The translations under genes and the position numbers were made by a program. The notes beneath the pieces are model-generated. The model made no database searches. It had not been told where the DNA came from and was given only the letters and a program-made list of their open reading frames with translations. From Ignavibacteriota bacterium (lineage in GTDB: Bacteria > Bacteroidota > Ignavibacteria > Ignavibacteriales > Melioribacteraceae), in contig PAAX01000009.1 in the NCBI GenBank assembly GCA_002698995.1, positions 1 to 42,799 on the forward strand: a stretch of DNA of 42,799 bases, read 5' to 3'. This document shows positions 1-12,594 of this stretch, piece after piece; position 1 is the first letter of the stretch; each line of letters begins with the position of its first letter.

Positions 1-1
1 A

Positions 2-139
2 ACATTGGTAAACCAGACACAAAATCAAGGAAGATACGAAGTTAAGTTTAATGCAAGAGATTTAGCAAGCGGAGTTTATATCTACAGACTTCAAGTAAAT
101 GATTTTGTAACAAGTAAGAAGATGATGTTATTGAAATAG
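2..139 (+). CDS. T9SS-secreted protein, C-terminal end only (5' partial)
   Basis: Reading in frame from base 2 gives 45 residues and a TAG stop. They match the second half of a type IX secretion sorting domain: TLVNQ, then GRYEVKFNARDLASGVYIYRL, split here as GRYEVKFNA and RDLASGVYIYRL, then a basic end SKKMMLLK. The same segments close the genes ending at 1938, 4130, 14537 and 40988. The rest of the gene lies before the window, so the function of the mature protein cannot be stated. The domain directs export through the outer membrane, after which it is normally removed or anchored. Confidence 0.85.
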   Translation, partial: TLVNQTQNQGRYEVKFNARDLASGVYIYRLQVNDFVTSKKMMLLK

Positions 140-176
140 TAAAATAAAACTTATTAAAACGAAATTGGAGAATGAA

Positions 177-389
177 ATGCCAAACTATTATGTAAATAAA
201 AATGCACAATCAACAGGTGAACATGAAGTTCATGAAGAAAGTTGTTCAAAGTTGCCACATTATGAAAACAGAATACATTTAGGTTATTTCTTTAAATGTG
301 AGGATGCTGTAAAAAAAGCAAAAGAGATTATTAAAAATGCAGAAGTAGATGGATGTAAAATATGCTCATCTGCATGTCATAAAAAATAG
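177..389 (+). CDS. small Cys/His-rich protein of unknown function (70 aa)
   Basis: A 70-residue protein beginning MPNYYVNKNAQSTGEHEVH. I chose the ATG at 177 because a GGAG at 167-170 lies 6 bases before it; an in-frame TTG at 165 has no such site. Cysteines lie at residues 23, 41, 60, 63 and 67, and the end reads CKICSSACHKK, so a metal site or disulfides are possible. I recall many bacteria carrying short proteins with the same YYVNKNAQS start and Cys-rich end, all uncharacterised. No signal peptide is visible, so it is probably cytoplasmic. It sits 37 bp after a T9SS cargo gene and is followed by a clear terminator. Confidence 0.8.
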   Translation: MPNYYVNKNAQSTGEHEVHEESCSKLPHYENRIHLGYFFKCEDAVKKAKEIIKNAEVDGCKICSSACHKK

Positions 390-399
390 TAAGGACTCT

Positions 400-430
400 A
401 GCTGCCAAATCGATTGGTTTGGCAGCTTTT
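400..430 (+). terminator. rho-independent terminator after the small Cys-rich gene
   Basis: A 10-bp perfect stem, AGCTGCCAAA pairing with TTTGGCAGCT around an 8-base loop, runs into TTTT. It starts 10 bases after the stop at 389. Confidence 0.85.
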
Positions 431-448
431 ATCAGTATAAGTACTGAT
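431..448. repeat. 18-bp palindromic repeat, copy 1
   Basis: ATCAGTATAAGTACTGAT: 7-base arms ATCAGTA and TACTGAT around TAAG. An identical copy lies at 518-535. It follows directly on the terminator's T run. Confidence 0.6.
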
Positions 449-517
449 ATGCTTATTTTGGCCAATAACAAAAAGCCTCTTTCCAGCTTCAAAACTAAAA
501 ATAACTTTAAAACAAGA

Positions 518-535
518 ATCAGTATAAGTACTGAT
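518..535. repeat. 18-bp palindromic repeat, copy 2
   Basis: Exact second copy of the palindrome at 431-448; the copies start 87 bp apart, about eight helical turns. Such spaced dyads can be protein-binding sites, but there is no gene evidence for a binding partner here. Confidence 0.6.
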
Positions 536-808
536 GTTAATTTGTAAAGCATACCATATATTCATTTAGCAAAATGAGTTTGGCTATTGTTTTTTTAATA
601 GAAATAATAATAGGGATAAACCAATTCAAAATAGACATATGTAAAAGTAAATGAAACAAGGTCAGTTTAAAAAATATGAAAAAATCGTAAGAGCTAGTAT
701 TTTGGAAGAATATGTAAATCTACCAACTTTCATTAACTGTATCGCTGAAATTTAATATTTAGTAAAATAGCTATAAGGTTCAAAAAAACTAAAATCAACA
801 AAATGAAC
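536..808 (+). other. intergenic DNA before the T9SS gene at 820
   Basis: The full gene-free stretch is 390-819 and holds the terminator and the two palindromes. The remainder is AT-rich. It includes a 34-codon ATG frame at 651-755 with plausible codon use but no ribosome-binding site, which I do not accept as a gene. I see no RNA gene and no convincing promoter. Confidence 0.5.
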
Positions 809-819
809 AGGAGGTTCAA

Positions 820-1938
820 ATGAAGTATTTAACTTTCCTTTTTCTTACGTTAATTTTCTCATTAAACTTGATCGGACAAGATCAAAGAATTGCCGACAAA
901 CAATTTATGCTAGGTTGTACTAGTGTTGGAACTACTGAACAAGTTACACACTATATTAATGCTGAGGGCGAAGTCTGGCAGTATAGTAGCGGTTCTTTTG
1001 TAACCGGTGGCGTTTATACAAATTCACTTACAACTGTAGGTAATGCGAACTTTAGCAGTTATGATTGGCCTGGATTTAATTTCAATTGGTTATATGGGCC
1101 ACCTTATTGGTCGCTTGGATTATACAAAGTAACAAATTCCAAACAAACAGATAAATATTTTTACTTAGACGCAAGAGATAGTGACTTTGGAGGTGCTGTT
1201 TATAACCCTGATTTTTATATATATTTTGATAATGATGAAGATGCTTATTATCATAGAGGAGGAAATGAAATCTCACAAGGGGAAGTAGTTAGAGTTTGGG
1301 ATATTCACGATGAATCACCAAACACATCTGAATTACAAAACTATTGGAACAATGTTTTAGTAGTACTTACGGATCAAAGTAATCCTCGAATTGTGTGGGG
1401 ACCTCACCCAACATTTCAGGCAACAAACTATAAGGTATACCGAGCTGTTTCAACAACACCATTAAATAATCCAGAATTAAATGCAGGACTTATAGCAACT
1501 GTAAGCAGTAGTACTTACGAATATAAAGATACTGATATTACTCTTTCAACATACGGGGATTATGTTTATTATTTTGTAAAAGCCTATAATGGTTCTTATT
1601 CAAGCCCATCAAATATAGGTGAAAAACGAGGATATTTTTACAAAGAGGGTATTACAGAGGAATCAGAAAAAATTCGAAATTATAATTTGTTTCAAAATTA
1701 TCCTAATCCGTTCAATCCTTCAACTTACATAAATTATACAGTTTCAGAACCTTCTTTTATTTCATTAAAAGTTTATGATGTTTTGGGAAATGAAATTGAA
1801 GAGTTAGTAAGTGAATCGAAAGAACCTGGTAATCATTCCGCCAAGTTTACTGCTGCTAATCTAGCAAGTGGAATATATTTTTATACATTGAGGGCAAAAA
1901 ATTATTCACATACTAAAATGATGATTTTATCAAAATAA
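820..1938 (+). CDS. T9SS-secreted protein with FN3-like segment
   Basis: A 372-residue secreted protein of unknown function. Residues 1-20 are a signal peptide (MKYLTFLFLTLIFSLNLIGQ). The middle is rich in Tyr, Trp, Gly and Asn, as in extracellular beta proteins. Residues about 195-270 look like a fibronectin type III fold, with TNYKVYRAVS, then SSTYEYKDTDI and YVYYFVKAYNGSYSSPS. From about residue 288 comes the T9SS sorting domain (NYPNPFNPSTYINY, YDVLGNEIEEL, LASGIYFYTL, KMMILSK). AGGAGG at 809-814 sets the ATG. A hairpin follows the stop, so the gene is probably transcribed alone. The likely location is the cell surface or medium. Confidence 0.85.
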   Translation: MKYLTFLFLTLIFSLNLIGQDQRIADKQFMLGCTSVGTTEQVTHYINAEGEVWQYSSGSFVTGGVYTNSLTTVGNANFSSYDWPGFNFNWLYGPPYWSLGLYKVTNSKQTDKYFYLDARDSDFGGAVYNPDFYIYFDNDEDAYYHRGGNEISQGEVVRVWDIHDESPNTSELQNYWNNVLVVLTDQSNPRIVWGPHPTFQATNYKVYRAVSTTPLNNPELNAGLIATVSSSTYEYKDTDITLSTYGDYVYYFVKAYNGSYSSPSNIGEKRGYFYKEGITEESEKIRNYNLFQNYPNPFNPSTYINYTVSEPSFISLKVYDVLGNEIEELVSESKEPGNHSAKFTAANLASGIYFYTLRAKNYSHTKMMILSK

Positions 1939-1963
1939 TTAGAACATGTGTAATTAATAATAA

Positions 1964-1988
1964 AACAGACCTTGTAAAAAGGTCTGTT
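1964..1988 (+). terminator. hairpin terminator after the T9SS gene
   Basis: AACAGACCTT pairs perfectly with AAGGTCTGTT around a 5-base loop, 26 bases after the stop. The tract after the stem is AT-rich but not a pure T run, so termination may be weak. Confidence 0.6.
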
Positions 1989-2033
1989 AATTCTATAGAT
2001 TTGAGAATATAGAAAAATTTAAGGGTTAGGATA

Positions 2034-4130
2034 ATGAGAAAATATTTAACCATTATGATGATACATTTTACGATGATAATAATTGCACAAGATATAACAT
2101 TGAAGTCAATAAATGGACCAATGGGAGGTATAGTCGGCGATATAGGTATTAACTCCAAAGGTGAAATATTTGCCGGCGCTTATTCAGCTTTTATAGGCTA
2201 TTCTGGTCTTTACAAATCTGAGGATAATGGTAATAGCTGGGTGAAAATAGAATCACAATTTGACGACTTTGAAGTTTATTCCATTTACATAACAAACGAA
2301 GACCATATATGGGTTGGAACAAATTTTCAAGGGAGAATTTATCGCTCAACAGATAATGGCAAAACATGGGAAAACAAACGAAACGGATATAATACAGGAG
2401 AATGCTGGGCATTTGGAGAAAGTAAAGACGGGGTTTTATTTGCCGGTGATGGTCAATACTATAATTTATCCCGCTCGCTGGATTACGGCGAAAACTGGGA
2501 ATTATCGGCAAATCTTCGTCCTTTTGTCTTTGCAACAGATTCTAATAATATAGTTTATGCTGGAACACATGATGGATTATTTGGCACAAGTGATAATGGA
2601 ATAACATGGGGACAAAATAATTTTCTAAAAAATATACCTGTATCAACAATAGTGATAGATGAAAATAATAATATTTACTGTGGAACCGGATATTATGATA
2701 ATGGAAATGGAGTATATTATTCGACGGATGGAGGTGTTACATGGACTCAAATAGGATTAGAAGGAAAAATAGTATTATCCTTAGCATTTGATTCTGAAAA
2801 GAACCTATTAGCCGGAACAGCAGAAGATGGTCTTTTCAAAACAACAAATAATGGAGAAAATTGGACACAATATCAAAAGGGGTTATATAAAAAACAACTA
2901 TTTAGGTTAAAGTTAAATAAGGAAGACGATATTTTTATTGGTTCAGAAGAAGAGGGGGTTTTTAGGTCAATAAATGGAGGAGAAGAATTTGAACAGGTTG
3001 GATTACCATTGTCCAATTCAAAAGACATAAAATTTTATGGAGACAGTTTGTTGTTTTCTTCAACTCCATCAGGTGTACAGAAATATAATATTGAGACAAA
3101 GAAATGGACAAATATAGGATTGCACAATGTGTTTGGTATAGATATAACAGAAAATGGAACTATTTATGCTGCAACATTTGCTGATGGATTATTTAAGACA
3201 GAGGATTTTGGCGCGAATTGGATTTTAACCAATCTAACAAAAGATAGTATAATGTCTGTCTATAATGTAGTTGCAAAAAATGAAGATACAATATTAGCGG
3301 CAACAGAATTCAATTTAAGGAAAAGTACTGATGGAGGAGAGAATTGGACAATTCTTCCGGTAAAAACGAGTTTTTTTTCAAGAGGAATGTCTATTAATAA
3401 TAATCAGATTTGGGTAACTGGAACCGGCTCAATGGATTATATATACAAATCAACTGATTATAGTAACTTTGAGTTAATGTTCTCATATAGTTATGGTTGG
3501 GCAGAAAATAATTGCATTTCTGCTTTATCAAATGAAAGTGTATTTGTGACTGATCCATATGATGGGACATATAGATCAACAGATAATGGTGAAACTTGGC
3601 AGCAACTTCTCACTGGTGGTCGAGGAGTATGGACTATTTATGCGGAAGATAATGGGTTATTGCTGGGTGGAGCAAGAGATACTATATGGTACTCGGATGA
3701 CTTAGGAGATAACTTAGTTGGGATCAAAGTTCCATTTGATAGAGATAATAATATAACAGACATTAAAAGAGGCAATAATAACCAACTTTATTTCAGTACT
3801 TATGAAACTGGAATATTTGAATTAGATATTCTTACTATTATAAATGATACTAAAAATACTTTTTTCCACTATGAGCTTTATCAAAATTACCCAAATCCCT
3901 TTAACCCTACAACCAGTATTGAGTATTCAGTACCTAGTAGTGAGTATGTTACGTTAAAGATTTATGATATACTTGGAAATGAAATAGCAACTTTAGTTAA
4001 TGAACAAAAAGATGCTGGAAGATATGAAGTTGAATTTAATGCAATTAATTTAGCAAGTGGCGTCTATTTCTATAGAATACAAACATCAACCGGATTTGTA
4101 TCAACAAAGAAATTAATACTCTTGAAATAA
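2034..4130 (+). CDS. T9SS-secreted Asp-box beta-propeller protein
   Basis: A 698-residue exported protein. A signal peptide ends near residue 18 (IIIAQD). The body holds about ten to twelve Asp-box motifs of the form S/T-x-D-x-G-x-x-W, for example YKSEDNGNSW, YRSTDNGKTW, YYSTDGGVTW and YRSTDNGETW, alternating with LAGTAEDGLF-type segments. This is the pattern of sialidase/BNR or Ycf48-like propellers, probably two of them. No sialidase catalytic residues can be assigned, so a binding or adhesive role is more likely than hydrolysis. Residues about 617-698 are the T9SS sorting domain (NYPNPFNPTTSIEY to KKLILLK). A short AGG lies before the ATG. Confidence 0.88.
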   Translation: MRKYLTIMMIHFTMIIIAQDITLKSINGPMGGIVGDIGINSKGEIFAGAYSAFIGYSGLYKSEDNGNSWVKIESQFDDFEVYSIYITNEDHIWVGTNFQGRIYRSTDNGKTWENKRNGYNTGECWAFGESKDGVLFAGDGQYYNLSRSLDYGENWELSANLRPFVFATDSNNIVYAGTHDGLFGTSDNGITWGQNNFLKNIPVSTIVIDENNNIYCGTGYYDNGNGVYYSTDGGVTWTQIGLEGKIVLSLAFDSEKNLLAGTAEDGLFKTTNNGENWTQYQKGLYKKQLFRLKLNKEDDIFIGSEEEGVFRSINGGEEFEQVGLPLSNSKDIKFYGDSLLFSSTPSGVQKYNIETKKWTNIGLHNVFGIDITENGTIYAATFADGLFKTEDFGANWILTNLTKDSIMSVYNVVAKNEDTILAATEFNLRKSTDGGENWTILPVKTSFFSRGMSINNNQIWVTGTGSMDYIYKSTDYSNFELMFSYSYGWAENNCISALSNESVFVTDPYDGTYRSTDNGETWQQLLTGGRGVWTIYAEDNGLLLGGARDTIWYSDDLGDNLVGIKVPFDRDNNITDIKRGNNNQLYFSTYETGIFELDILTIINDTKNTFFHYELYQNYPNPFNPTTSIEYSVPSSEYVTLKIYDILGNEIATLVNEQKDAGRYEVEFNAINLASGVYFYRIQTSTGFVSTKKLILLK

Positions 4131-4299
4131 AGAAAACTATCCCTCTTTTTGGTGGGGATTATATATTTATAAAATTCAAACCGGTAGAGTTTTTCATAAG
4201 TTCGTAATACGATGTAATTAAAATAAGGAACAAGGCTTGCAGAGCCAAGCCCTCTCGACATTTGGATTTCGGACCCATATAGTCCTGAAATAGGTTGAC

Positions 4300-4578
4300 T
4301 CAAAAATGATAATAAAAGTCAACAATTGTCAGGATGCTGCATCCAATTGATTTAAGAAATTCTCTTCCAATACCTGACTTAAAGAAAGTTTCTCTATTTA
4401 ATGCATCTTGTTTGGAAGTAAACTCTTCGGTATAAATTAATTCAAGAGGTCTGCGATTTTTTGTTGATTTAACTTTTCCGGAATTATGCTCATTCAATCT
4501 TCTGCTTAGATCGGAAGTCATTCCAATATATCTTTTGGAATCTTTAAGAGAAGTCAATATGTAAACAAAGTAGGTCAT
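4300..4578 (-). CDS. GIY-YIG nuclease-superfamily protein
   Basis: A 92-residue single-domain protein of the UvrC/Slx1-type GIY-YIG fold. The first strand reads YFVYIL (residues 3-8) and the second KRYIGMTSDLSRRLNEHNSG, with the conserved Tyr, Gly and Arg. The later RETFFKSGIGREFLK holds the conserved Glu. Length is normal for stand-alone members, which have no known cellular role. It lies directly downstream of tRNA-Cys on the same strand, behind that gene's terminator, and has no clear ribosome-binding site, so expression may be low. Read-through from the tRNA promoter is possible. Confidence 0.85.
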   Translation of the reverse strand: MTYFVYILTSLKDSKRYIGMTSDLSRRLNEHNSGKVKSTKNRRPLELIYTEEFTSKQDALNRETFFKSGIGREFLKSIGCSILTIVDFYYHF

Positions 4579-4580
4579 AA

Positions 4581-4613
4581 TAAGAAAGGTCTGAAGAAAA
4601 AATCAACAGACCT
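4581..4613 (-). terminator. terminator after tRNA-Cys
   Basis: On the minus strand AGGTCTG pairs with CAGACCT across a 13-base T-rich loop and is followed by TTTCTTATT. It separates tRNA-Cys from the GIY-YIG gene. Confidence 0.6.
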
Positions 4614-4623
4614 AAAATATTTG

Positions 4624-4697
4624 AGGTGAAGGTGGGATTCGAACCCACGAATAAAGGTTTTGCAGACCTTCGCCTTAAGCCACTTGGCTACTTCACC
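4624..4697 (-). tRNA. tRNA-Cys (GCA)
   Basis: The minus strand folds into a full cloverleaf. The acceptor arms GGTGAAG and CTTCACC pair perfectly, the anticodon stem AAGGT/ACCTT holds the loop CTGCAAA with anticodon GCA, and the T arm is GTGGG-TTCGAAT-CCCAC. The unpaired base after the acceptor is U, the usual discriminator for cysteine. CCA is not encoded. Its first 38 bases are repeated just upstream at 4748-4785. Confidence 0.95.
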
Positions 4698-4732
4698 AAA
4701 AACAAATTTTCAAATAACTGAAAGTGGATTCG

Positions 4733-4747
4733 CCCGCCGAAGGCGGG
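4733..4747. repeat. GC-rich hairpin (CCCGCC-GAA-GGCGGG)
   Basis: A perfect 6-bp GC stem with a GAA loop, out of keeping with the AT-rich surroundings. It abuts the tRNA-Cys fragment exactly, and resembles short REP-like dispersed hairpins. Confidence 0.6.
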
Positions 4748-4785
4748 TTGCAGACCTTCGCCTTAAGCCACTTGGCTACTTCACC
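4748..4785 (-). pseudogene. 5' half of tRNA-Cys (38-bp fragment)
   Basis: Bases 4748-4785 are identical to 4660-4697, the acceptor 5' arm, D arm and anticodon arm up to the anticodon of tRNA-Cys. The 3' half is absent and replaced by the GC-rich hairpin, so no tRNA can form. Confidence 0.85.
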
Positions 4786-4792
4786 GTATCAT

Positions 4793-4818
4793 AAAAAAAA
4801 ATCCACATTGAGTGGATT
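4793..4818 (-). terminator. terminator after tRNA-Gly
   Basis: On the minus strand AATCCAC pairs with GTGGATT around TCAAT and runs into a stretch of eight or more T. It lies 5 bases after the tRNA-Gly. Confidence 0.85.
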
Positions 4819-4822
4819 AGAG

Positions 4823-4895
4823 AGCGGGAAACGAGACTCGAACTCGCGACATCAACCTTGGCAAGGTTGCGCTCTACCAACTGAGCTATTCCCGC
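4823..4895 (-). tRNA. tRNA-Gly (GCC)
   Basis: Complete cloverleaf on the minus strand: acceptor GCGGGAA/TTCCCGC, D arm GCTC-AGTTGGTA-GAGC, anticodon stem CAACC/GGTTG with loop TTGCCAA (anticodon GCC), and T arm GCGAG-TTCGAGT-CTCGT with one G-T pair. CCA is not encoded. It is the upstream member of the tRNA pair and has its own terminator. Confidence 0.95.
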
Positions 4896-4968
4896 ATTAA
4901 ATTTTATTAAGAACAAAAATTAGAGTACAAAATATAACATGATTCAAACAATCTTGCAAATATCTTTT

Positions 4969-5487
4969 TTATTTCCTAGATCCGTGAATAAATCCGCGGT
5001 ATGGTCTTGAATGCTGAATAGTTATAAATGCGCTTGAATCTATTTGATCTATTATATTTCTAACCATTTTAAGGTCTTTTCTTCTGATAATTATAATCAA
5101 AATAGTCATTCCTCCTGTGCTTCCTTCAGCCGGAATTAAAGTAACGCCGTATTTTGATGATCTGAGTGCATCAGCAATTTTATCTGTAAATCTTCTTGAT
5201 ATTATGTTTATCTGAACATAACCCAATGCAATTTTTTCTTCCAGACTTATACCCAAAATATTTCCGATTCCGAAACCAAGTGCGTAAGCAAAAAGATTTA
5301 TTGTTTCATCCATATTATTAACTATAAACCGCATCGCAAAAATCCAGATTAACACTTCTGCAAATCCGGCTACACCGGCAAGATATTTTTTACCTTGAAC
5401 TACCAGAATAGTTCTAAATGTGCCGATAGTAACATCGCACATACGCATTAATGTTATTAGTAAAGCGCCTAATATTATATCAATCAT
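4969..5487 (-). CDS. UPF0316 / DUF2179 membrane protein
   Basis: A 172-residue protein. Three hydrophobic segments span about residues 1-80 (MIDIILGALLITLMRMCDV, the VAGFAEVLIWIFAMRF helix and the INLFAYALGFGIGNILG helix). They are followed by a soluble C-terminal DUF2179-like domain of about 80 residues with VQINIISRR, GVTLIPAEGSTGG and FITIQHSRPYRGFIHG. Length and order match the UPF0316 family (YebE type), whose function is unknown; the C-terminal domain resembles small-molecule sensing domains. It is divergent from pcm at 5570 and has no clear ribosome-binding site. Confidence 0.85.
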   Translation of the reverse strand: MIDIILGALLITLMRMCDVTIGTFRTILVVQGKKYLAGVAGFAEVLIWIFAMRFIVNNMDETINLFAYALGFGIGNILGISLEEKIALGYVQINIISRRFTDKIADALRSSKYGVTLIPAEGSTGGMTILIIIIRRKDLKMVRNIIDQIDSSAFITIQHSRPYRGFIHGSRK

Positions 5488-5569
5488 AACAAAACTTATT
5501 TAATTGCAAACACAAAAGTTAAATAAAGAAATAGTATTTTATAAGAACAAAATTAATTATTTATAATCA

Positions 5570-6205
5570 ATGTACGAAACCGAAAGAAAAGAATTAATAG
5601 ATTCACTACGAAAAAAGGGAATTACAAATGAACTCGTTCTTAATGCAATGCTTAATGTAGAAAGGCATTTATTTGTTCCCGATGTAGTAAAACATCATGC
5701 ATATGCTGATACAGCTTTGCCAATTGGACACGGGCAGACAATTTCTCAACCATATACTGTTGCTGTAATGACTCAAGCTCTAAATCCTCAAAAGAATGAT
5801 AAAATTCTTGAAATTGGAACCGGCTCCGGTTATCAAGCTGCTGTTTTGAGTCAGATGGGAGTTAAAGTTTACACTATTGAACGAAATAATGAAATTTATA
5901 ATACGGCTTTAAAACTTTTTGATGTATTGAAATTAAGAATTGCATCCAGATGCAGTGATGGAACAATTGGCTGGGATGAATTTGCTCCTTACAACGGAAT
6001 TATTGTTACTGCTGGAGGTCCATCTATTCCAAAAAAATTATTAAAGCAGCTTGCTGTTGAGGGGAAACTTGTAATTCCGGTTGGTGATAGAAAAAATCAG
6101 ACTCTTAACATAATTACAAAAATTGATGAAGAGACTTTTAAGATAAAAGAAGTTCCAAATTTTGCTTTTGTTCCTCTTATTGGGAGGGAAGGTTGGAAAA
6201 ATTAG
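5570..6205 (+). CDS. pcm: protein-L-isoaspartate O-methyltransferase
   Basis: Repairs age-damaged proteins by methylating L-isoaspartyl residues with S-adenosylmethionine in the cytoplasm. The 211-residue length is typical. Residues about 52-68 carry the family signature GHGQTISQPYTVAVMTQ. The AdoMet-binding motif LEIGTGSGYQAAVLSQMG follows at about 80-97, then an acidic YTIERN, and GIIVTAGGPSIPKKLLKQL. The C-terminal FVPLIGREGW is also typical. The gene overlaps miaA by 13 bp, so the two are translationally coupled. No strong ribosome-binding site lies before the ATG. Confidence 0.95.
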   Translation: MYETERKELIDSLRKKGITNELVLNAMLNVERHLFVPDVVKHHAYADTALPIGHGQTISQPYTVAVMTQALNPQKNDKILEIGTGSGYQAAVLSQMGVKVYTIERNNEIYNTALKLFDVLKLRIASRCSDGTIGWDEFAPYNGIIVTAGGPSIPKKLLKQLAVEGKLVIPVGDRKNQTLNIITKIDEETFKIKEVPNFAFVPLIGREGWKN

Positions 6206-7110
6206 CTCTCGTAATAATTGGTCCAACTTGTTCGGGAAAAACTTCACTTGCTCTTAATCTTGCCAAAAAATTAAATTCAGAAATAATTTCGGCAGACAGC
6301 AGACAGATTTATAAATATCTTGATATTGGGACAGCAAAACCAACACTTGAAGAACTAAATTCTATTAAACATCATTTTATTGATATTCTAGATCCTTCCG
6401 CTGAATTTAATGCAAGTATGTTTGAAATTGAGGCGCTTAAAATTATTACAGAGCTGCATTCACAAAATAAAATTCCAATAATTGCGGGTGGTTCCGGCTT
6501 ATATGTGAAGGCATTGATAGATGGAATTTTTGATTCAATTGATTCCGATGATGATTATAGAATAGAACTGCTTGAATTTAAGAATAAGTTCGGTAATGAA
6601 TATTTATATGAAGAATTAAAAAAAATAGATCCGGTTAGTGCAGAAAAAATGCTTCCTCAAAATTGGAAAAGAGTTATTAGAGCATTAGAAGTCTATAAAA
6701 TTTCGGGCGAACCGATTTGGAAATTACAAAGTAGTCATCAAAGAGAAGTAAATGTTAATTTTCTGCAGTATGGATTGAATTGGGAAAGAGAGATTTTATA
6801 TAAGAATATCGAAACCCGTGTTGATAAAATGATTGAAGACGGATTGATAGATGAAGTTTCAAAACTAATTAATAAATATGATAAGTCGCTCAATTCCCTT
6901 AATACTGTGGGATATAAGGAGATAATCGAATTTCTTGAAAATAAAATCAGTAAAGAAAGAGCTGTAGAATTAATAAAAAGAAATACGAGAAGATATGCAA
7001 AACGGCAATTAACTTGGTTCAGAAAAGATGAACGAATTAAGTGGATTGATATTTCTTCATTATCCGAAATCGATAAAGTATCATCAGAAATTATTAAACA
7101 AATCACATAA
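6193..7110 (+). CDS. miaA: tRNA dimethylallyltransferase
   Basis: Transfers a dimethylallyl group from DMAPP to N6 of A37 in tRNAs reading codons that start with U. The 305-residue length is normal. The P-loop is GPTCSGKT at residues 10-17. Then come SADSRQIYKYLDIGTAKP, the DxxxP-type HHFIDILDPSAEFNASMF, and IIAGGSGLYVKALIDG. The tRNA-binding part has TVGYKEIIEFL and RRYAKRQLTWFRKD. The start is TTG at 6193, inside the end of pcm, preceded by a purine-rich GGGAGGGAAGG. A weak 6-bp hairpin (7119-7138) follows the stop. Confidence 0.96.
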   Translation: MEKLALVIIGPTCSGKTSLALNLAKKLNSEIISADSRQIYKYLDIGTAKPTLEELNSIKHHFIDILDPSAEFNASMFEIEALKIITELHSQNKIPIIAGGSGLYVKALIDGIFDSIDSDDDYRIELLEFKNKFGNEYLYEELKKIDPVSAEKMLPQNWKRVIRALEVYKISGEPIWKLQSSHQREVNVNFLQYGLNWEREILYKNIETRVDKMIEDGLIDEVSKLINKYDKSLNSLNTVGYKEIIEFLENKISKERAVELIKRNTRRYAKRQLTWFRKDERIKWIDISSLSEIDKVSSEIIKQIT

Positions 7111-7174
7111 TAAAATAAGACTGATTAATTCTTCAGTCCAAAACAAGCTAAAAAAAAATAAAACTAATTTTAAA

Positions 7175-7203
7175 TTGATTGGAAATAAGATTTAGTATAT
7201 TTA
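7175..7203 (+). promoter_or_regulatory. possible Bacteroidota-type promoter for speA
   Basis: TTG at 7175-7177 and TATATTTA at 7196-7203 are 18 bases apart, close to the -33 TTTG and -7 TAnnTTTG pattern of Bacteroidota. It lies about 150 bp before the speA start. Other AT-rich matches exist nearby, so this is only a candidate. Confidence 0.3.
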
Positions 7204-7349
7204 TTGTTTGTTTTTTCCGCTTTGTTCTAAAAATGAAAATTTGATTCACAAAAAAATGTTTATATGGCGGTAAAAGAAAATTAGTTTTGCATTTTAAATG
7301 ATAATTACTTAATTAAACAATCACTTAAAACGAGGAAAGAAAATATAAA

Positions 7350-9242
7350 TTGAGAAAATGGCGTACAGAAGATTCGGCTGAACTTTATAATATTAATGGA
7401 TGGGGAATTAACTTTTTTTCCATTAATGATAAAGGACATGTTTATGTAACCCCCAAAAAAGATGGTGCTCAAGTTGACCTTAAAGAATTAATTGATGAAC
7501 TGCAGTTAAGAGACGTTTCCACTCCGGTGTTGTTAAGATTTACTGATATTTTAGACAGCAGAATTGAAAAGATGGCTAGCAGTTTTAAACTTGCTGCAGA
7601 AGAATATAATTTCAAAGCACAAAATTTTATTATCTATCCAATTAAAGTAAACCAGATGCGCCCGGTTGTTGAAGAAATTGTAGCGCATGGAAAAAGATTT
7701 AATATTGGACTTGAAGCCGGCTCTAAACCTGAACTTCATGCCGTTATTGCAATTAATACCGATAATGATTCGCTTATAATTTGCAACGGTTATAAAGATG
7801 AAGATTATATTGAACTTGCTATTCTTGCTCAAAAGATGGGAAGAAGAATTTTCCTTGTTGTTGAAAAATTAAATGAATTAAAACTCATTACAAAAATAGC
7901 CAAGCAGCATAAAATAAAACCTAATATTGGAATTAGAATTAAACTTGCCAGTTCCGGAAGCGGTAAATGGGAAGATTCCGGCGGTGATGTAAGTAAGTTT
8001 GGTTTAACTTCATCCGAACTTTTAGAAGCGTTGGATTTTCTTGAAAAAAACAAAATGAAAGACTGTCTTAAACTAGTTCATTTTCATATCGGCAGTCAGA
8101 TTAATAAAATTAGAAGATTTAAAGTAGCGCTGCGTGAAGCATCACAATTTTATGTTCAGCTCCACAAACTTGGTTTCAGTATTGAGTTTGTTGATATTGG
8201 GGGAGGACTTGGAGTTGATTATGACGGGACTCGTTCTTCAAACAGCGAAAGCAGTGTTAATTATAGTATTCAAGAATATTTGAATGATGCAATTTCTACA
8301 ATGGTTGATGTAAGTGATGAGAATGGGTTACCTCATCCTAATATTATAACTGAATCGGGAAGATCATTAACCGCTCATCATTCGGTATTGGTTTTTGAAG
8401 TTTTGGAATCATCTTCTTTGCCGGAATGGAATGAAGAAGAGGAAGTTTCCGAAGAAGATGATGATCTTGTTCAAGAACTTTATAATTTGTGGAATAATCT
8501 TAATCAACCCAAAATGCTTGAAACATGGCATGATGCTCTGCAGATAAGAGAAGAGGCGTTAGATAAATTCAGTTTCGGAATTCTTGATCTTAAAACCAGA
8601 GCACAAGTTGAACGATTGTTCTGGTCAATTGCAAAAGATATTCATCAAATGACAAGCGAACTTAAACATGTGCCTGATGAACTTCTCTATTTAAGAAAAT
8701 TATTATCAGATAAATATTTCTGTAATTTTTCATTGTTTCAATCTTTACCCGATTCCTGGGCTATCGATCAGATTTTCCCGATTATTCCAATTCAAAGATT
8801 AGACGAGAAACCGGAGAGAACAGCAACACTGCAGGATATTACGTGCGATTCCGATGGTAAGATTGATAACTTTATTGCTACTAAAAACTTTTCATATTAT
8901 CTGCCTGTTCATTCATTAAACAGCAAAGAGCCTTATTATATTGGTGTATTTTTAGTCGGTGCTTATCAAGAAATTTTAGGTGATCTTCATAATCTTTTTG
9001 GAGATACAAATGTTGTTCATATTTCTGTTGATGAAAAAGGCTATTCAATCGATCAGATAATTGATGGAGAAACAGTTGCTGAAGTTCTTGATTATGTTTT
9101 ATACAATTCAAAAAAATTAGTTCGAATTGTAGAGACTTGGGTTACATCTTCAGTTAAAGCCGGAAAAATTTCTCAGGAAGAAGGAAAAGAATTCTTGTCA
9201 AATTACAGATCAGGTTTGTACGGTTATACATATTTAGAATAA
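7350..9242 (+). CDS. speA: biosynthetic arginine decarboxylase
   Basis: A PLP enzyme that turns arginine into agmatine, the first step of polyamine synthesis by the agmatine route. The 630-residue length fits the large SpeA family. The N-terminus (RKWRTEDSAELYNINGWG) is characteristic. Lys99 in FIIYPIKVNQMR is the predicted Schiff-base lysine. HFHIGSQI, FVDIGGGLGVDYDG and ITESGRSLTAHHSV complete the barrel site. The C-terminal domain has PVHSLNSKEPYYIGVFLVGAYQE, read here as PVHSLNSKEP and YYIGVFLVGAYQE. Start is TTG at 7350, with a purine-rich GAGGAAAG rather far upstream (about 11-15 bases). A strong terminator follows, so the gene is monocistronic. Confidence 0.96.
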   Translation: MRKWRTEDSAELYNINGWGINFFSINDKGHVYVTPKKDGAQVDLKELIDELQLRDVSTPVLLRFTDILDSRIEKMASSFKLAAEEYNFKAQNFIIYPIKVNQMRPVVEEIVAHGKRFNIGLEAGSKPELHAVIAINTDNDSLIICNGYKDEDYIELAILAQKMGRRIFLVVEKLNELKLITKIAKQHKIKPNIGIRIKLASSGSGKWEDSGGDVSKFGLTSSELLEALDFLEKNKMKDCLKLVHFHIGSQINKIRRFKVALREASQFYVQLHKLGFSIEFVDIGGGLGVDYDGTRSSNSESSVNYSIQEYLNDAISTMVDVSDENGLPHPNIITESGRSLTAHHSVLVFEVLESSSLPEWNEEEEVSEEDDDLVQELYNLWNNLNQPKMLETWHDALQIREEALDKFSFGILDLKTRAQVERLFWSIAKDIHQMTSELKHVPDELLYLRKLLSDKYFCNFSLFQSLPDSWAIDQIFPIIPIQRLDEKPERTATLQDITCDSDGKIDNFIATKNFSYYLPVHSLNSKEPYYIGVFLVGAYQEILGDLHNLFGDTNVVHISVDEKGYSIDQIIDGETVAEVLDYVLYNSKKLVRIVETWVTSSVKAGKISQEEGKEFLSNYRSGLYGYTYLE

Positions 9243-9265
9243 AAAAATTGTTTGATTTGTTGATG

Positions 9266-9298
9266 AAGGGACACGGTAATTTAGTGTCCCTTTTTTTT
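9266..9298 (+). terminator. rho-independent terminator after speA
   Basis: AAGGGACAC pairs with GTGTCCCTT around a 9-base loop, followed by a run of T to 9298. It lies 23 bases after the stop. Confidence 0.93.
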
Positions 9299-9382
9299 AC
9301 TCCGCAAAATATCATGAATGCAACTTTAAATAAATTTTTGTAGTTGTTACTTTATGATTATTCAAAAAATAAAGGAAAATTT

Positions 9383-9697
9383 ATGAAACGTATTATGGTA
9401 TTTTTGTTTACATCACTTTTGTTAATTTCTTTAACATCATGCGGCGATGCAACTGATGTTGTTGATTCCGGAACTTATCAAGGATCAATCAAAAAGATTG
9501 AAGCGGAGAAATCTGAAATTTATGTTGATTTACAAGATGGAAAAACTATTGAATTATATTTTATTGATGAAACGGAATTAACACAGAATGGTGAAGTTGT
9601 TGATTTCTCTGCTTTGCAAGTCGGACAAAAAGTAGAAGTAGAAGTTAAGAAAGTCGGAAAAAGATTAGATCCGCTGAAAGTAAAAATATTGGAATAA
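9383..9697 (+). CDS. small lipoprotein with DUF5666-like domain
   Basis: A 104-residue lipoprotein. I chose the ATG at 9383, preceded by AAAGGAAA, over an in-frame TTG at 9344 that would put 13 polar residues before the signal. The signal peptide ends in the lipobox LTSC with Cys20. The mature part (GTYQGSIKKIEAEKSEIYVD, then ALQVGQKVEVEVKK) looks like a small beta barrel of the DUF5666 kind, but the match is by eye. It ends 1 base before the next gene, so the pair is an operon. Role unknown. Confidence 0.75.
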   Translation: MKRIMVFLFTSLLLISLTSCGDATDVVDSGTYQGSIKKIEAEKSEIYVDLQDGKTIELYFIDETELTQNGEVVDFSALQVGQKVEVEVKKVGKRLDPLKVKILE

Positions 9698-9698
9698 A

Positions 9699-10190
9699 AT
9701 GAATCAATTACCAGAATTTTGGAGGACAGAGATATGGCATCCGCTCTCTGTCCATCTTCCTATTGCACTTCTTTTAGTTGCTGCACTATTCGGATTAACA
9801 GCATTTTTTACAAAAAAAGAAAAATGGTATGAATTCAGCTACATTCTGCTCTTAATTGGAACAGTTGGAGCTTGGGTTTCTGTTTATACTGGAAACTTAG
9901 CTGATGGTGTAGTAGGCAGAACTCTGTGTGATCCAACCGTTTTTGAAAATCATGAAAATGCCGCTTATACAGTTGCATGGCTTTTTTCTGTCGCATCAGT
10001 TTTGGCAATTGCCGATTATAAAAATGTTTTGGTAAAATTTAAAAGTTACAATCGAATTTTAATTCTTGTACTGATGTTAACCGGAAGTGGATTTTTATCT
10101 TATGCTGGACATTTAGGAGCAGAGTTAGTTTATCAGCAGGCAGCCGGTGTTTATACTCCATCAGACGACTGTTCAGAATTTTCTGAGTAA
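9699..10190 (+). CDS. DUF2231 membrane protein
   Basis: A 163-residue integral membrane protein with four predicted helices (about residues 18-36, 43-62, 88-105 and 117-135). The conserved WHPLSVHLPIALLL near the N-terminus and FLSYAGHLGAELVYQQAAGV near the end are the DUF2231 signature; their His residues could bind haem or metal, though this is unproven. It starts 1 base after the lipoprotein stop and is probably co-transcribed with it. It is convergent with the EamA gene, 6 bases away, with no obvious terminator between. Confidence 0.85.
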   Translation: MNQLPEFWRTEIWHPLSVHLPIALLLVAALFGLTAFFTKKEKWYEFSYILLLIGTVGAWVSVYTGNLADGVVGRTLCDPTVFENHENAAYTVAWLFSVASVLAIADYKNVLVKFKSYNRILILVLMLTGSGFLSYAGHLGAELVYQQAAGVYTPSDDCSEFSE

Positions 10191-10196
10191 TTATTA

Positions 10197-11105
10197 TTAT
10201 TCTTTTATTCTATTTGATCGCTTTAACTTGTTTAGATTTTGGTAAATAATTCCACTTACAATAAAAATTAATCCGATTATTGATGAAGGAAGAATTTTCT
10301 CCTTTAAAATCAATGCGATAAAAAACATTGAAATAAATGGGGAGAGATAAGCCAGTGTTGATGTTTTAGCTTTATTGCTGCTTAATGCCAATCCGTTCAT
10401 CCAAAGAAAAAATGTTATTCCCATTTCAAATAATCCAATATAAACTGCTCCAAGTAGGTATTTCGGGTTTTGAATTTCAAATGAATCAAATAATATGAGA
10501 TAAACAAATGAATAGATTGTTCCGAATAAAAAAGCAATGAATAATTTTAATGAAGAATCTCGGTTGTCTTTTAGATTTAAAATCCAAAATGAAGCCCATA
10601 TAATTGAACTTCCAGCCGCCAGAATAACACCAAAAATACTTTCGAACTTAAGTGCAAATAAATCACCTCTTGAGGCAATTATAAACACTCCAAAGAAAGC
10701 AAGAATTAATCCGATTATAGTTTTTAAGGTTAGTTTATCACCTAAAAACAAAACTGAAAAAAGTGAAATAGCTATCGGCCAAGTATAATTAAGGGGCTGC
10801 GCCTCTTGAGCCGGAAGTAGTGAATAAGCTTTGAATAAAACGAGGTAATATAAAAAAGGATTTACAAAACCTAAGAGGAGATTGATTTTAATATATCTTT
10901 TATCAAAAAAATTAAAAACCGCTCTCTTATTTTTTCTGAATGCAAAAAGAAATAAAATCAGAACACTTGAAAGTGATGAAAAAAATAGAAGCTGAACAAA
11001 ATTTAATCCCTCTAAAGTAAACTTAAAAGCAGTGGCAACAGTCGACCATAAGATTACAGCCGATAATGCATAAATATTTGATTTGCTGTTTTTAGAAAGA
11101 TTCAT
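10197..11105 (-). CDS. EamA-family (DMT) transporter
   Basis: A 302-residue protein made almost entirely of ten hydrophobic helices in two EamA repeats (about residues 8-138 and 150-290). The first repeat has ALSAVILWSTVATAFKF and PLNYTWPIAISLFSVLFLGD; the second has GAVYIGLFEMGITFFLWMNG and ILKEKILPSSIIGLIFIVSG. The pattern is that of drug/metabolite exporters of the inner membrane. The substrate cannot be read from the sequence. There is no clear ribosome-binding site, and the gene stands alone on its strand. Confidence 0.9.
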   Translation of the reverse strand: MNLSKNSKSNIYALSAVILWSTVATAFKFTLEGLNFVQLLFFSSLSSVLILFLFAFRKNKRAVFNFFDKRYIKINLLLGFVNPFLYYLVLFKAYSLLPAQEAQPLNYTWPIAISLFSVLFLGDKLTLKTIIGLILAFFGVFIIASRGDLFALKFESIFGVILAAGSSIIWASFWILNLKDNRDSSLKLFIAFLFGTIYSFVYLILFDSFEIQNPKYLLGAVYIGLFEMGITFFLWMNGLALSSNKAKTSTLAYLSPFISMFFIALILKEKILPSSIIGLIFIVSGIIYQNLNKLKRSNRIKE

Positions 11106-11208
11106 TTAGTAATTTGGTTGTTAGTTTTTTCATCATTCAAAAGTAATATGATGATTCTTTATTATGAAATAAAAAGTACTTCGGTAATTAATAGAGACTG
11201 GAAGAATT

Positions 11209-11238
11209 ATGACATTTCCACCGAAGGGAGAAATCTTA
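11209..11238. repeat. degenerate REP-like dispersed repeat
   Basis: Contains GACATTTCCACC-GAA-GGGAGAAATC, an imperfect hairpin with outer arms ATTTC/GAAAT and inner CC/GG. I recall this sequence family as a frequent intergenic repeat in Bacteroidota and relatives. Only one copy is in the window. Confidence 0.45.
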
Positions 11239-11319
11239 TAATTCACAGATGATTTCATCGAAATAGTATTCGAATAATTCTATAGACGATTCAGTTATAA
11301 AAATTTTAATTAAGGGGCT

Positions 11320-11901
11320 ATGACAGATTATTCATTTTTAGAACCGAATACAATGATAAGACTTTATGCGCAAGGTGCTTTTCCTATGGCGGATGAAGAT
11401 GGTTCCATTGAATGGTACTACCCTGAAATTAGAACGATAATTCCTTTAGATAATTTTAATTATCCCAGATCATTAAGAAAATTTATAGAGAAAAGCGATT
11501 TCGAATTTAGATTTGATGTTGATCCCATAAATGTAATCAGAAATTGTGCTGATAGAGAAAATACTTGGATATCGGAAGAACTAATTGATGCTTATAAGCG
11601 TCTTTATAAACTCGGATTTCTTCATTCTGTTGAAGTTTACAAAGAGAATGAATTAGTTGGAGGCTTATATGGGATTACGCATCGTGGAGCATTTTTCGGA
11701 GAATCGATGTTCAGTAAAGTTTCACAGGCTTCTAAATCCGCTTTAGTTAAGCTAATTGAACATCTTAATGAAAAAGGATTTGTACTTTTAGATATTCAAT
11801 TCATTACCGATCATTTAAAGATGTTTGGTGCAGTTGAAATAGCTTTAGAAGAATATCAAAAGCTGTTAATTTTATCTTATACAAAAAATGTTTTTTTCTA
11901 G
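11320..11901 (+). CDS. aat: leucyl/phenylalanyl-tRNA--protein transferase
   Basis: Adds Leu or Phe from charged tRNA to proteins with N-terminal Arg or Lys, marking them for ClpAP through the bacterial N-degron pathway. The 193-residue length is slightly short but in range. Family blocks are present in order: YAQGAFPMADEDG, IEWYYPEIRTIIPL, TWISEELIDAYKRLYKLGF, HSVEVYKENELVGGLYGI, GAFFGESMFSKVSQASK, and LLDIQFITDHLKMFGAVEI. AAGGGG lies close before the ATG. The next gene starts 9 bases after the stop, so they may share a transcript. Confidence 0.95.
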   Translation: MTDYSFLEPNTMIRLYAQGAFPMADEDGSIEWYYPEIRTIIPLDNFNYPRSLRKFIEKSDFEFRFDVDPINVIRNCADRENTWISEELIDAYKRLYKLGFLHSVEVYKENELVGGLYGITHRGAFFGESMFSKVSQASKSALVKLIEHLNEKGFVLLDIQFITDHLKMFGAVEIALEEYQKLLILSYTKNVFF

Positions 11902-11910
11902 GGAGATTTT

Positions 11911-12594
11911 ATGAAAGTGTTAAAATTTGTGTTACTGCTCTTTTTGTTTTCTTTTGTTACTGTTAATGCACAGACGTTTGGGGGTGGTCTTCAGTTGGGT
12001 TATCCTCATGGAGAGTTCAAAGAAAATGTGGATAGAGTTGCGTATGGATTTCAATTACAGGGAACAATCTGGTCTCCAAACAAACTTAGACCGGTTACAT
12101 TAGGGTTAAGCGGGGGATTCATTACTTATGGCGAAGAAACTTCGCGTCGTCCGTTAAGCACTACTATTCCCGATGTAACTGTTGATGTTAAAAGAAGCAA
12201 TAATATGGCAAATCTTCATTTGCTATTAATGATTTCACCTTTTCAAGGAACATGGCGCCCTTATTTAGAAGGTCTTGCCGGTGGTTCTTATTTGTATACC
12301 AGCAGTGAAGTAAGCAGCAACTATAATAATAATTCTGTTTTTGAAGATGTAAATAAAGATGACCTAACATGGAGTGCCGGAATTGGTGGCGGCTTCTTGA
12401 TTAAAGTTGGTAAAGATAATGAGAATGATATTTATATAGACATTAAAACTAGATACATCTGGGGAGGAACTGCTGAATATCTTAAAGAAGGTTCGGTAAA
12501 AATTGTAAACGGACAGGCTCTTTATGATGTAAAAAAATCAAAAACTAATATGTGGAATATTCACATTGGGGTTTTGTTTTACATAAACAGATAA
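11911..12594 (+). CDS. outer-membrane beta-barrel protein
   Basis: A 227-residue exported protein with a signal peptide ending near residue 20 (SFVTVNAQ). The mature part is a series of amphipathic beta strands separated by polar turns (GGGLQLGYPHGEF, AYGFQLQGTIW, MANLHLLLMISPF, WSAGIGGGFLIKV, YIDIKTRYIWGG). The last strand ends IHIGVLFYINR, much like OmpA-barrel or outer-membrane-protein beta-barrel families, which usually end in an aromatic strand. GGGAG 7 bases before the ATG is a good start signal. It follows aat by 9 bases, though the functions seem unrelated. Role unknown. Confidence 0.8.
   Translation: MKVLKFVLLLFLFSFVTVNAQTFGGGLQLGYPHGEFKENVDRVAYGFQLQGTIWSPNKLRPVTLGLSGGFITYGEETSRRPLSTTIPDVTVDVKRSNNMANLHLLLMISPFQGTWRPYLEGLAGGSYLYTSSEVSSNYNNNSVFEDVNKDDLTWSAGIGGGFLIKVGKDNENDIYIDIKTRYIWGGTAEYLKEGSVKIVNGQALYDVKKSKTNMWNIHIGVLFYINR

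Follow-up and report, generated by a model that had tools for sequence, protein, structure and literature searches.

Integrases classically land in tRNA genes, and duplication of a tRNA end is a classical signature of integration. REP hairpins and integron attC sites serve their enzymes as folded sites, and REP sequences, the Rickettsia palindromic elements and the double-hairpin elements of mitochondrial DNA are all small palindromic elements. The Ssn proteins of Neisseria and others are single-strand-specific GIY-YIG nucleases, small and single-domain, that act on repeats.

The known systems closest to the locus described here are SegB-like nucleases and rtT-type repeats, two kinds that it appears to join. 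SegB, of phages T4 and T6, is a free-standing GIY-YIG homing endonuclease that cuts in tRNA genes and drives segmental amplification; the accessible part of the SegB paper gives its motif as RAWTSGAAC and describes donor cutting as typically inefficient (PMC13096335). In our reading, this motif would be the complement of the T-loop consensus. The likeness, which is drawn from gene context and motif and not from sequence comparison, is that a GIY-YIG gene adjoins tRNA genes and that the SegB motif appears to match T-loop sequence. Unlike SegB, a phage gene, the nucleases considered here form several isotype-tied groups in bacterial genomes and have a domain of about 80 aa, and they are found with hairpin-implanted tRNA remnants, which do not appear in the accessible part of the SegB account (PMC13096335).

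The rtT repeats of the E. coli tyrT/tyrV locus (L384) have the same layout as the implanted remnants; common descent is not claimed. In all four units, the T arm of tRNA-Tyr (59-66 or 59-67) is split from positions 67-85. The insert is 68 nt long in the three units measured, and 6, 10 and 17 of 300 shuffles folded as well. A T arm split at the T loop by a structured insert is common to rtT and the T-loop implants described below. The rtT units end in the tRNA 3' end, which some of the remnants described below also contain; the rtT inserts are longer, and the copy found at our locus keeps the 5' half. A small RNA, rttR, is annotated in the rtT locus, and none of the seven annotated features of the 1.6-kb tyrT/tyrV stretch is a GIY-YIG gene by name.

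With the REP, Rickettsia and mitochondrial elements, the implants share short perfect hairpins, some of them double, in RNA genes or remnants; in contrast to those elements, their sequence varies by site while the structure is kept, and they lie in tRNA copies, many of which are near a nuclease gene. The titles and opening parts of abstracts that we searched, with few subscription journals among them, yielded neither hairpin-implanted tRNA remnants nor isotype-specific bacterial GIY-YIG lineages, and the three mentions of tRNA in the accessible part of PMC1564403 do not concern tRNA-adjacent genes.

Anatomy of the tRNA-Cys locus

The window, that is, the whole stretch of 42,799 nucleotides that was analysed, belongs to an Ignavibacteriota genome of 4.23 Mb (G000). 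A repeat search revealed a direct repeat (4660-4697 and 4748-4785) with 38 of 38 positions identical, an offset of 88 nt and a spacer of only 50 nt between the two copies. A first-pass annotation of this DNA had reported an exact 38-bp copy of the 5' half of tRNA-Cys whose break point meets a CCCGCC-GAA-GGCGGG hairpin exactly. Both claims hold, as the hairpin directly adjoins the repeat copy, with the refinement that this 5' half is that of a minus-strand tRNA. On this strand, the order is tRNA-Gly, a terminator-like repeat, a pseudo-tRNA-Cys (5' half, hairpin and CGAATCC), a 28-nt spacer, the intact tRNA-Cys, another terminator-like repeat and a GIY-YIG ORF (Table 1).

Table 1. Features around the tRNA-Cys gene of the window
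Feature	Position	Strand	Evidence
Intact tRNA-Gly (gcc), upstream neighbour	4822..4895	-	ARAGORN; RF00005 match
Terminator-like inverted repeat and T-run after tRNA-Gly	4791..4818	-	Read in sequence
Pseudo-tRNA-Cys 5' half, positions 1-38, identical to intact gene	4748..4785	-	38/38 repeat
Putative implanted hairpin, 6-bp stem, 3-nt loop; replaces 18 nt reaching from the anticodon loop to the T loop	4733..4747	.	Sequence; same site in other genomes
Probable residual T-arm of pseudo-tRNA, CGAATCC, short	4726..4732	-	Sequence; compare G008, G113, L174
Intact tRNA-Cys (gca)	4623..4697	-	ARAGORN, cloverleaf fold, RF00005
tRNA-Cys trailer with terminator-like hairpin	4580..4612	-	Sequence; shared with G000:C7:414-474
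GIY-YIG nuclease ORF, 92 aa, single-domain	4300..4578	-	PF01541 (Pfam scan), E 1.4e-17; Cys group in tree

The hairpin seems to lie within a degraded tRNA copy and not at the end of that copy, because CGAATCC beyond the hairpin also matches the tRNA. Within the window, this heptamer could in part come from AATCCAC of the tRNA-Gly terminator. In other genomes, 12 to 19 nt beyond the hairpin match the tRNA, and this longer match supports CGAATCC as a T-arm residue. The pseudo-copy was also considered as a folded RNA, and this was rejected for the window copy, whose folding does not exceed that of shuffles (z -0.71 and -0.07, with -1.62 for the entire intergenic stretch).

The Cys hairpin has no further match in the window at up to two mismatches (mean of 100 shuffles, 0.00), and the repeat 38-mer has just two copies genome-wide with up to three mismatches allowed. 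The genome scan proposed in the first-pass annotation for further copies of the GC-rich hairpin returned only the one in the window (CCCGCCNNNGGCGGG, one occurrence in 4.23 Mb), and a dispersed palindromic repeat (REP- or RPE-like) was rejected for the Cys hairpin on this single copy. On the far side of the window ORF, no remnant was found within 500 nt. As for the neighbouring genes, two ORFs at 820-4130 carry a C-terminal secretion-system sorting domain (Por_Secre_tail), the second of them also matching Sortilin-Vps10 and BNR repeats, and the surroundings of the tRNA pair include ORFs for PCMT, IPP transferase (miaA-like, tRNA modification) and Leu/Phe-tRNA-protein transferase (5570-7110 and 11320-11901).

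The invariant columns of the nuclease alignment (A1) include Y6, Y17, R27, H31 and E63, which we take to be the catalytic residues of the GIY-YIG domain, and the nearest solved structures in the PDB by sequence are those of UPF0213 (1zg2 and 1ywl) and then SLX1. The ORF is under purifying selection: over 70 codons, its comparison with a second copy on contig C7 gave a dN of 0.066 and a dS of 0.26, and two other ORF pairs gave dN values of 0.13 and 0.17 with saturated dS. The second copy (G000:C7:414-701, L052) has a tRNA-Cys trailer in front of it and no tRNA. Altogether, 12 places in the own genome match the window ORF, some of them beside tRNA-Met, -Leu, -Ser and -Arg.

Implanted remnants in this and other genomes

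We searched 58 genomes (the own genome and its relatives) for the junction of hairpin and tRNA at the DNA level, and found it in two other genera (G006 and G008). With up to two mismatches, the Cys pattern occurred in 11 of the 164 genomes of the order. The matched contexts run from tRNA-Cys through a GIY-YIG ORF, GAAGGTCTGCAA and the hairpin to CGAATCCGACC, some as repeated units; the hairpin stems are CCCGCC/GGCGGG, CCCGGC/GCCGGG or shorter, with variable loops, and the same 18 nt were replaced in 12 of the 15 Cys inserts examined. G008, G113 (two) and L174 also have a pseudo-Cys that precedes the intact gene, as the window does, and G023 and G114 have one in decayed form. Three loci among the G113/G114 pattern matches (L079, L082 and L083) are not tRNA-related.

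Whether relatives carry the fragment without an accompanying element, a question raised in the first-pass annotation, received a divided answer. In 31 genomes the tRNA-Cys lay in the fetched loci; an ORF lies downstream of it in four of these (G000, G006, G008 and G023), each with a hairpin-implanted copy, and all 11 genomes with the Cys pattern have a GIY-YIG ORF in at least one matched locus. Conversely, three of the 27 genomes without an ORF at tRNA-Cys (G009, G055 and G018, whose contig stops 30 nt downstream) carry an implanted copy; the copy can thus occur without an adjacent ORF. In the own genome, remnants of tRNA-Phe, -Ser-cga and -Val likewise have no ORF within 700 nt. Six further ORF-less Cys loci have short tRNA-Cys pieces only; those in G043 and G046 may be decayed implants, and those in G002, G019, G034 and G042 showed no clear implant on reading. 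A sequence error at the locus, which had also been considered, is unlikely, as the layout recurs in the single-contig genomes G008, G046 and G048 and in the isolate Maribellus luteus (L199).

A census from the tRNA side found remnants within 700 nt of eight of the 42 tRNAs of the own genome, that is, at seven loci, two Ser genes sharing one remnant pair. These comprise ten single remnants (Cys 1, Leu 2, Met 1, Ser-gct 1, Ser-cga 2, Phe 1 and Val 2), each with a hairpin by eye. The Met locus has a displaced tRNA 3' part with TCCGCCGCGGCGGA; the Leu locus has two ORFs, each followed by a tRNA 3' part with CCTACTGCGTAGG, the second 3' part bearing three consecutive hairpins; at the Ser locus, a displaced 5' part with two D-loop hairpins precedes the ORF and the intact tRNA; and at the Arg locus with an ORF, no remnant was found. 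The tRNA 3' end is present in the Ser-cga, Leu and Phe remnants and in the arrays of a relative, G048, where 13 of 43 tRNAs have remnants, nine of them without an ORF, and some arrays reach at least eight units. Arrays with implants and no ORF within 700 nt were seen there for Cys (L336), Glu (L320), Thr (L317) and Arg (L332), with periods of about 92, 113, 112 and 90, respectively. Two genomes without a GIY-YIG match at E 1e-8 had remnants at two of 44 (G051) and none of 39 (G038) tRNAs. At least one of those in G051 (Asn) is a hairpin remnant; a Lys fragment there was rejected as an implant since it looks like a native anticodon arm instead. The difference between genomes with and without GIY-YIG has a p value of 2e-5 when the tRNAs of these four genomes are taken as independent. 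Across the four genomes, then, remnants track the nuclease at the genome level, and a nuclease next door is not needed.

We also counted from the nuclease side. A profile search gave GIY-YIG matches at E 1e-8 in 51 of 58 genomes, often in tandem (for example, five units with a period of 315 in G048 and 450 in G046), and units of GIY-YIG ORF and remnant also occur in tandem. Of the 152 loci analysed, 11 belong to the own genome (12 matches, with two at a single locus), 86 to relatives (30 loci and 60 stretches among the matches listed, minus four duplicates; these are part of the listed places, chosen down the list) and 55 to named genomes, one of these loci having no recognisable ORF. In 109 of the 152 (5 of 11, 71 of 86 and 33 of 55, respectively), the GIY-YIG domain has a tRNA no more than 300 nt away, always on the same strand; about 0.9% would be expected by chance. 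Of the 110 loci that have a tRNA up to 600 nt away, 97 have partial tRNA copies beside them, against four of 110 for the reversed-tRNA control; by set, copies of at least 12 nt were found in 4/5, 70/72 and 23/33 (reversed tRNA, 0/5, 2/72 and 2/33), and colinear pieces with an insert between them in 1/5, 49/72 and 16/33 (reversed control, none). The chance expectation and the reversed controls led us to reject the ideas that ORF and tRNA lie together by chance and that the tRNA fragments are accidental. Inserts with a stem of at least 5 bp were found at 40 of 86 loci in relatives, 13 of 55 in named genomes and 1 of 11 in the own genome, where the fragment threshold makes the nuclease-side count too low and the tRNA-side census corrects it. 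The tRNA-adjacent GIY-YIG ORFs occur under the record titles Bacteroidetes, Ignavibacteria and Patescibacteria, among others, and they stand free beside tRNA genes and not in an intron. A group I intron in the anticodon loop was rejected because the insert is only 15 nt long and an Rfam scan of 16 own-genome stretches (including L051) found tRNAs and no intron family.

Implant structure and nuclease lineages

Fold energies of 96 distinct inserts were compared with shuffles, and 76 were significant at p<0.05 and 51 at p<0.01. Several of the 20 that were not are double mini-hairpins, which the single-stem test misses; some, such as L087 and L140, are still unconvincing. By crude position windows, the inserts lie in the T loop (35), spanning into it (8), in the anticodon arm (30), in the D loop (20) or elsewhere (3), and random placement would give 15.1, 6.4, 29.0, 20.7 and 28.8%. 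The T loop is therefore enriched (43 of 96 in or spanning into it, against 21.5%) and the rest of the tRNA avoided (3 of 96 outside the D, anticodon and T windows, against 28.8%), whereas D and anticodon counts are as random. Six remnants (L096, L113, L124, L134, L153 and L171) have more than one implanted loop.

The site tends to repeat with the isotype. In addition to the Cys case, the Met remnants after the ORF have their insert at 58|61-63 in six of the six loci with inserts, L130 having an additional upstream D-loop insert. The Pro implants are mixed (anticodon arm in L148, L155, L167 and L171; T loop in L148, L149 and L171). The T loop is intact and the anticodon arm alone implanted in Pro remnants of L155 and L167 and in an Ala remnant of L215. 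In the seemingly hairpin-free L174, L154, L167 and L215, the hairpin was, by eye, bridged or missed by BLAST; the T-loop insert of L145 has ends that pair as CTTACC/GGTAAG around a long loop, and in the L195 remnant no hairpin was seen by eye.

Pairing holds in almost every cell (53/56, 24/24, 60/60 and 21/21, among others) in nine groups of equal-length inserts, which were hand-picked after the inserts were seen, and every group has at least one two-sided change. A scan of 22-mers between GTTC and a T-arm-like end for two 4-bp hairpins with 3-nt loops gave stronger evidence: pairing was complete (8/8) in 18 of 79 distinct T-loop sequences, against three of the 200,000 random strings tried. 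At two of the eight pair positions, C-G, G-C and T-A all occur. Paired arms that persist despite sequence change could reflect selection on structure or mutational correction between the arms.

A tree of the nucleases, built by a quick method from 157 domains over 80 columns and with 68 of its 152 inner branches open, shows groups that sort by tRNA isotype. The isotype label changes 53 times, against a mean of 94.7 for shuffled labels and with none of 200 shufflings as low, where 18 labels were used with 'no tRNA' counted as one and near-copies add to the clustering. Six Met and two unlabelled rows form one group (SH-aLRT 99), and seven Leu and two unlabelled rows another (SH-aLRT 100), three Leu rows lying elsewhere; 16 of 17 Cys rows fall into one group of 21 (support 87), and Ser rows are scattered over several groups. 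A separate group of 14 rows, including L059-L062, has no tRNA label. According to the translations, a GIY-YIG group without tRNA label splits apparent four-helix-bundle (S23-type) genes at L053, L094 and L107, and at L097, L122 and L127 its members lie inside or at genes looking like tyrosine recombinases.

Proposed origin of the implanted remnants

We propose, with a probability of roughly 55%, that the implanted tRNA remnant was left or amplified by a small free-standing GIY-YIG lineage specialised in one isotype, here Cys. The nuclease would cut its tRNA gene, and repair would then insert or tandemly duplicate the unit such that one complete tRNA survives, next to a surplus copy or half. 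Palindromic implants would arise in the surplus copy and end its capacity to act as a tRNA, as a good substrate or as a long partner in recombination; in this way the implants might protect it. Several observations stand against this proposal. The intact tRNA still carries the supposed target and would need a protection of its own, although for SegB donor cutting is described as typically inefficient. Implants in the D loop and anticodon arm are no commoner than random (20 and 30 of 96). Hairpin remnants exist without a near ORF (Phe, Ser-cga and Val here; 9 of 13 in G048; Cys in G009 and G055), and the GIY-YIG-free G051 has at least one (Asn), in a census of only four genomes. The remnants of L155, L167 and L215 keep an intact T loop and are implanted in the anticodon arm only. 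Finally, the window lacks a remnant on the far side of its ORF, and the fold energy of 20 of the 96 inserts is not significant.

Since similar palindromes occur elsewhere in the genome, a general palindrome-inserting process is possible. Such a process would be directed by structure into the loops of any foldable, dispensable sequence; tRNA remnants would just be suitable targets, and the GIY-YIG gene would only make them. CCTACNNNGTAGG has 12 copies in the own genome, three of them in Leu remnants (reversed control, 3), and TCCGCCN{2,4}GGCGGA has seven, one each in Ser and Met remnants (reversed control, 0); by eye, three of the five TCCGCC copies that are not in remnants sit within a larger inverted repeat, and remnants without a near ORF are implanted too. 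However, the repetition of the site with the isotype (Met 6/6 and Cys 12/15, with Pro mixed), the single genome copy of the Cys hairpin and the rule-based count of only four GC-rich hairpins (stem of at least 6 bp) in the whole 42.8-kb window all point away from it, and we regard this explanation as possible but on the unlikely side. A more doubtful alternative is that the remnant is a working part, either a folded DNA or RNA site for nuclease mobility or a structured RNA controlling the nuclease, in which case structure would be kept while sequence drifts. The near-perfect pairing with two-sided changes in the nine groups and the 22-mer scan is consistent with this, as are the amplification of remnants in arrays, the similarity to UPF0213 and then to the structure-specific nuclease SLX1, and the E. 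coli rtT, where the same T-loop layout goes with an annotated small RNA. Arm-to-arm mutational correction could, however, maintain pairing without selection; moreover, 5' and 3' remnants keep very different parts of the tRNA, some remnants have no near ORF, and the window pseudo-copy folds no better than shuffles. Similarly long odds apply to a bolder version, in which the implanted remnants would be the cognate folded DNA or RNA sites of a large class of isotype-specific, single-domain GIY-YIG nucleases of bacterial chromosomes, with E. coli rtT as fossils of that system and with loops rebuilt as hairpins because the enzyme reads structure.

The first-pass annotation saw in the partial tRNA the mark of integration or excision, or of a failed duplication mediated by the hairpin. 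An event involving a mobile element or a duplication agrees with our results, and both the tRNA-end duplication and the exact break point are what an ordinary integrase might leave at tRNA-Cys. However, none of the eleven ORFs scanned against Pfam (the GIY-YIG ORF and ten further main ones at positions 1-12,000) matched an integrase, only 50 nt separate the repeats, and the repeat is the 5' half. Failed hairpin-mediated duplication fares no better, given that the hairpin appears as an implant inside the tRNA copy and that other genomes, in other genera, have other hairpins at the same site, and given the family-wide pattern. We therefore consider an integrase remnant or such a failed duplication very improbable.

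A small free-standing nuclease tied to one tRNA isotype would point to a second, integrase-free route into tRNA genes, by which their invasion and amplification have been little noticed, and it offers a possible origin for the E. coli rtT repeats. The targets of unnamed GIY-YIG proteins may be predictable from neighbouring tRNAs, and intact and hairpin-disrupted tRNA copies would make testable substrate pairs. For annotation, a hairpin-bearing pseudo-tRNA may be called a real tRNA: ARAGORN called a hairpin-implanted tRNA-Pro-like copy (L152, 1237-1313) tRNA-Ser. Separately, at L268, L270 and L271 (G000 C3, C6 and C19), TCCGCC..GGCGGA is centred in larger inverted repeats of the GGGGAC...GTCCCC type, as if hairpins had been inserted into hairpin loops.
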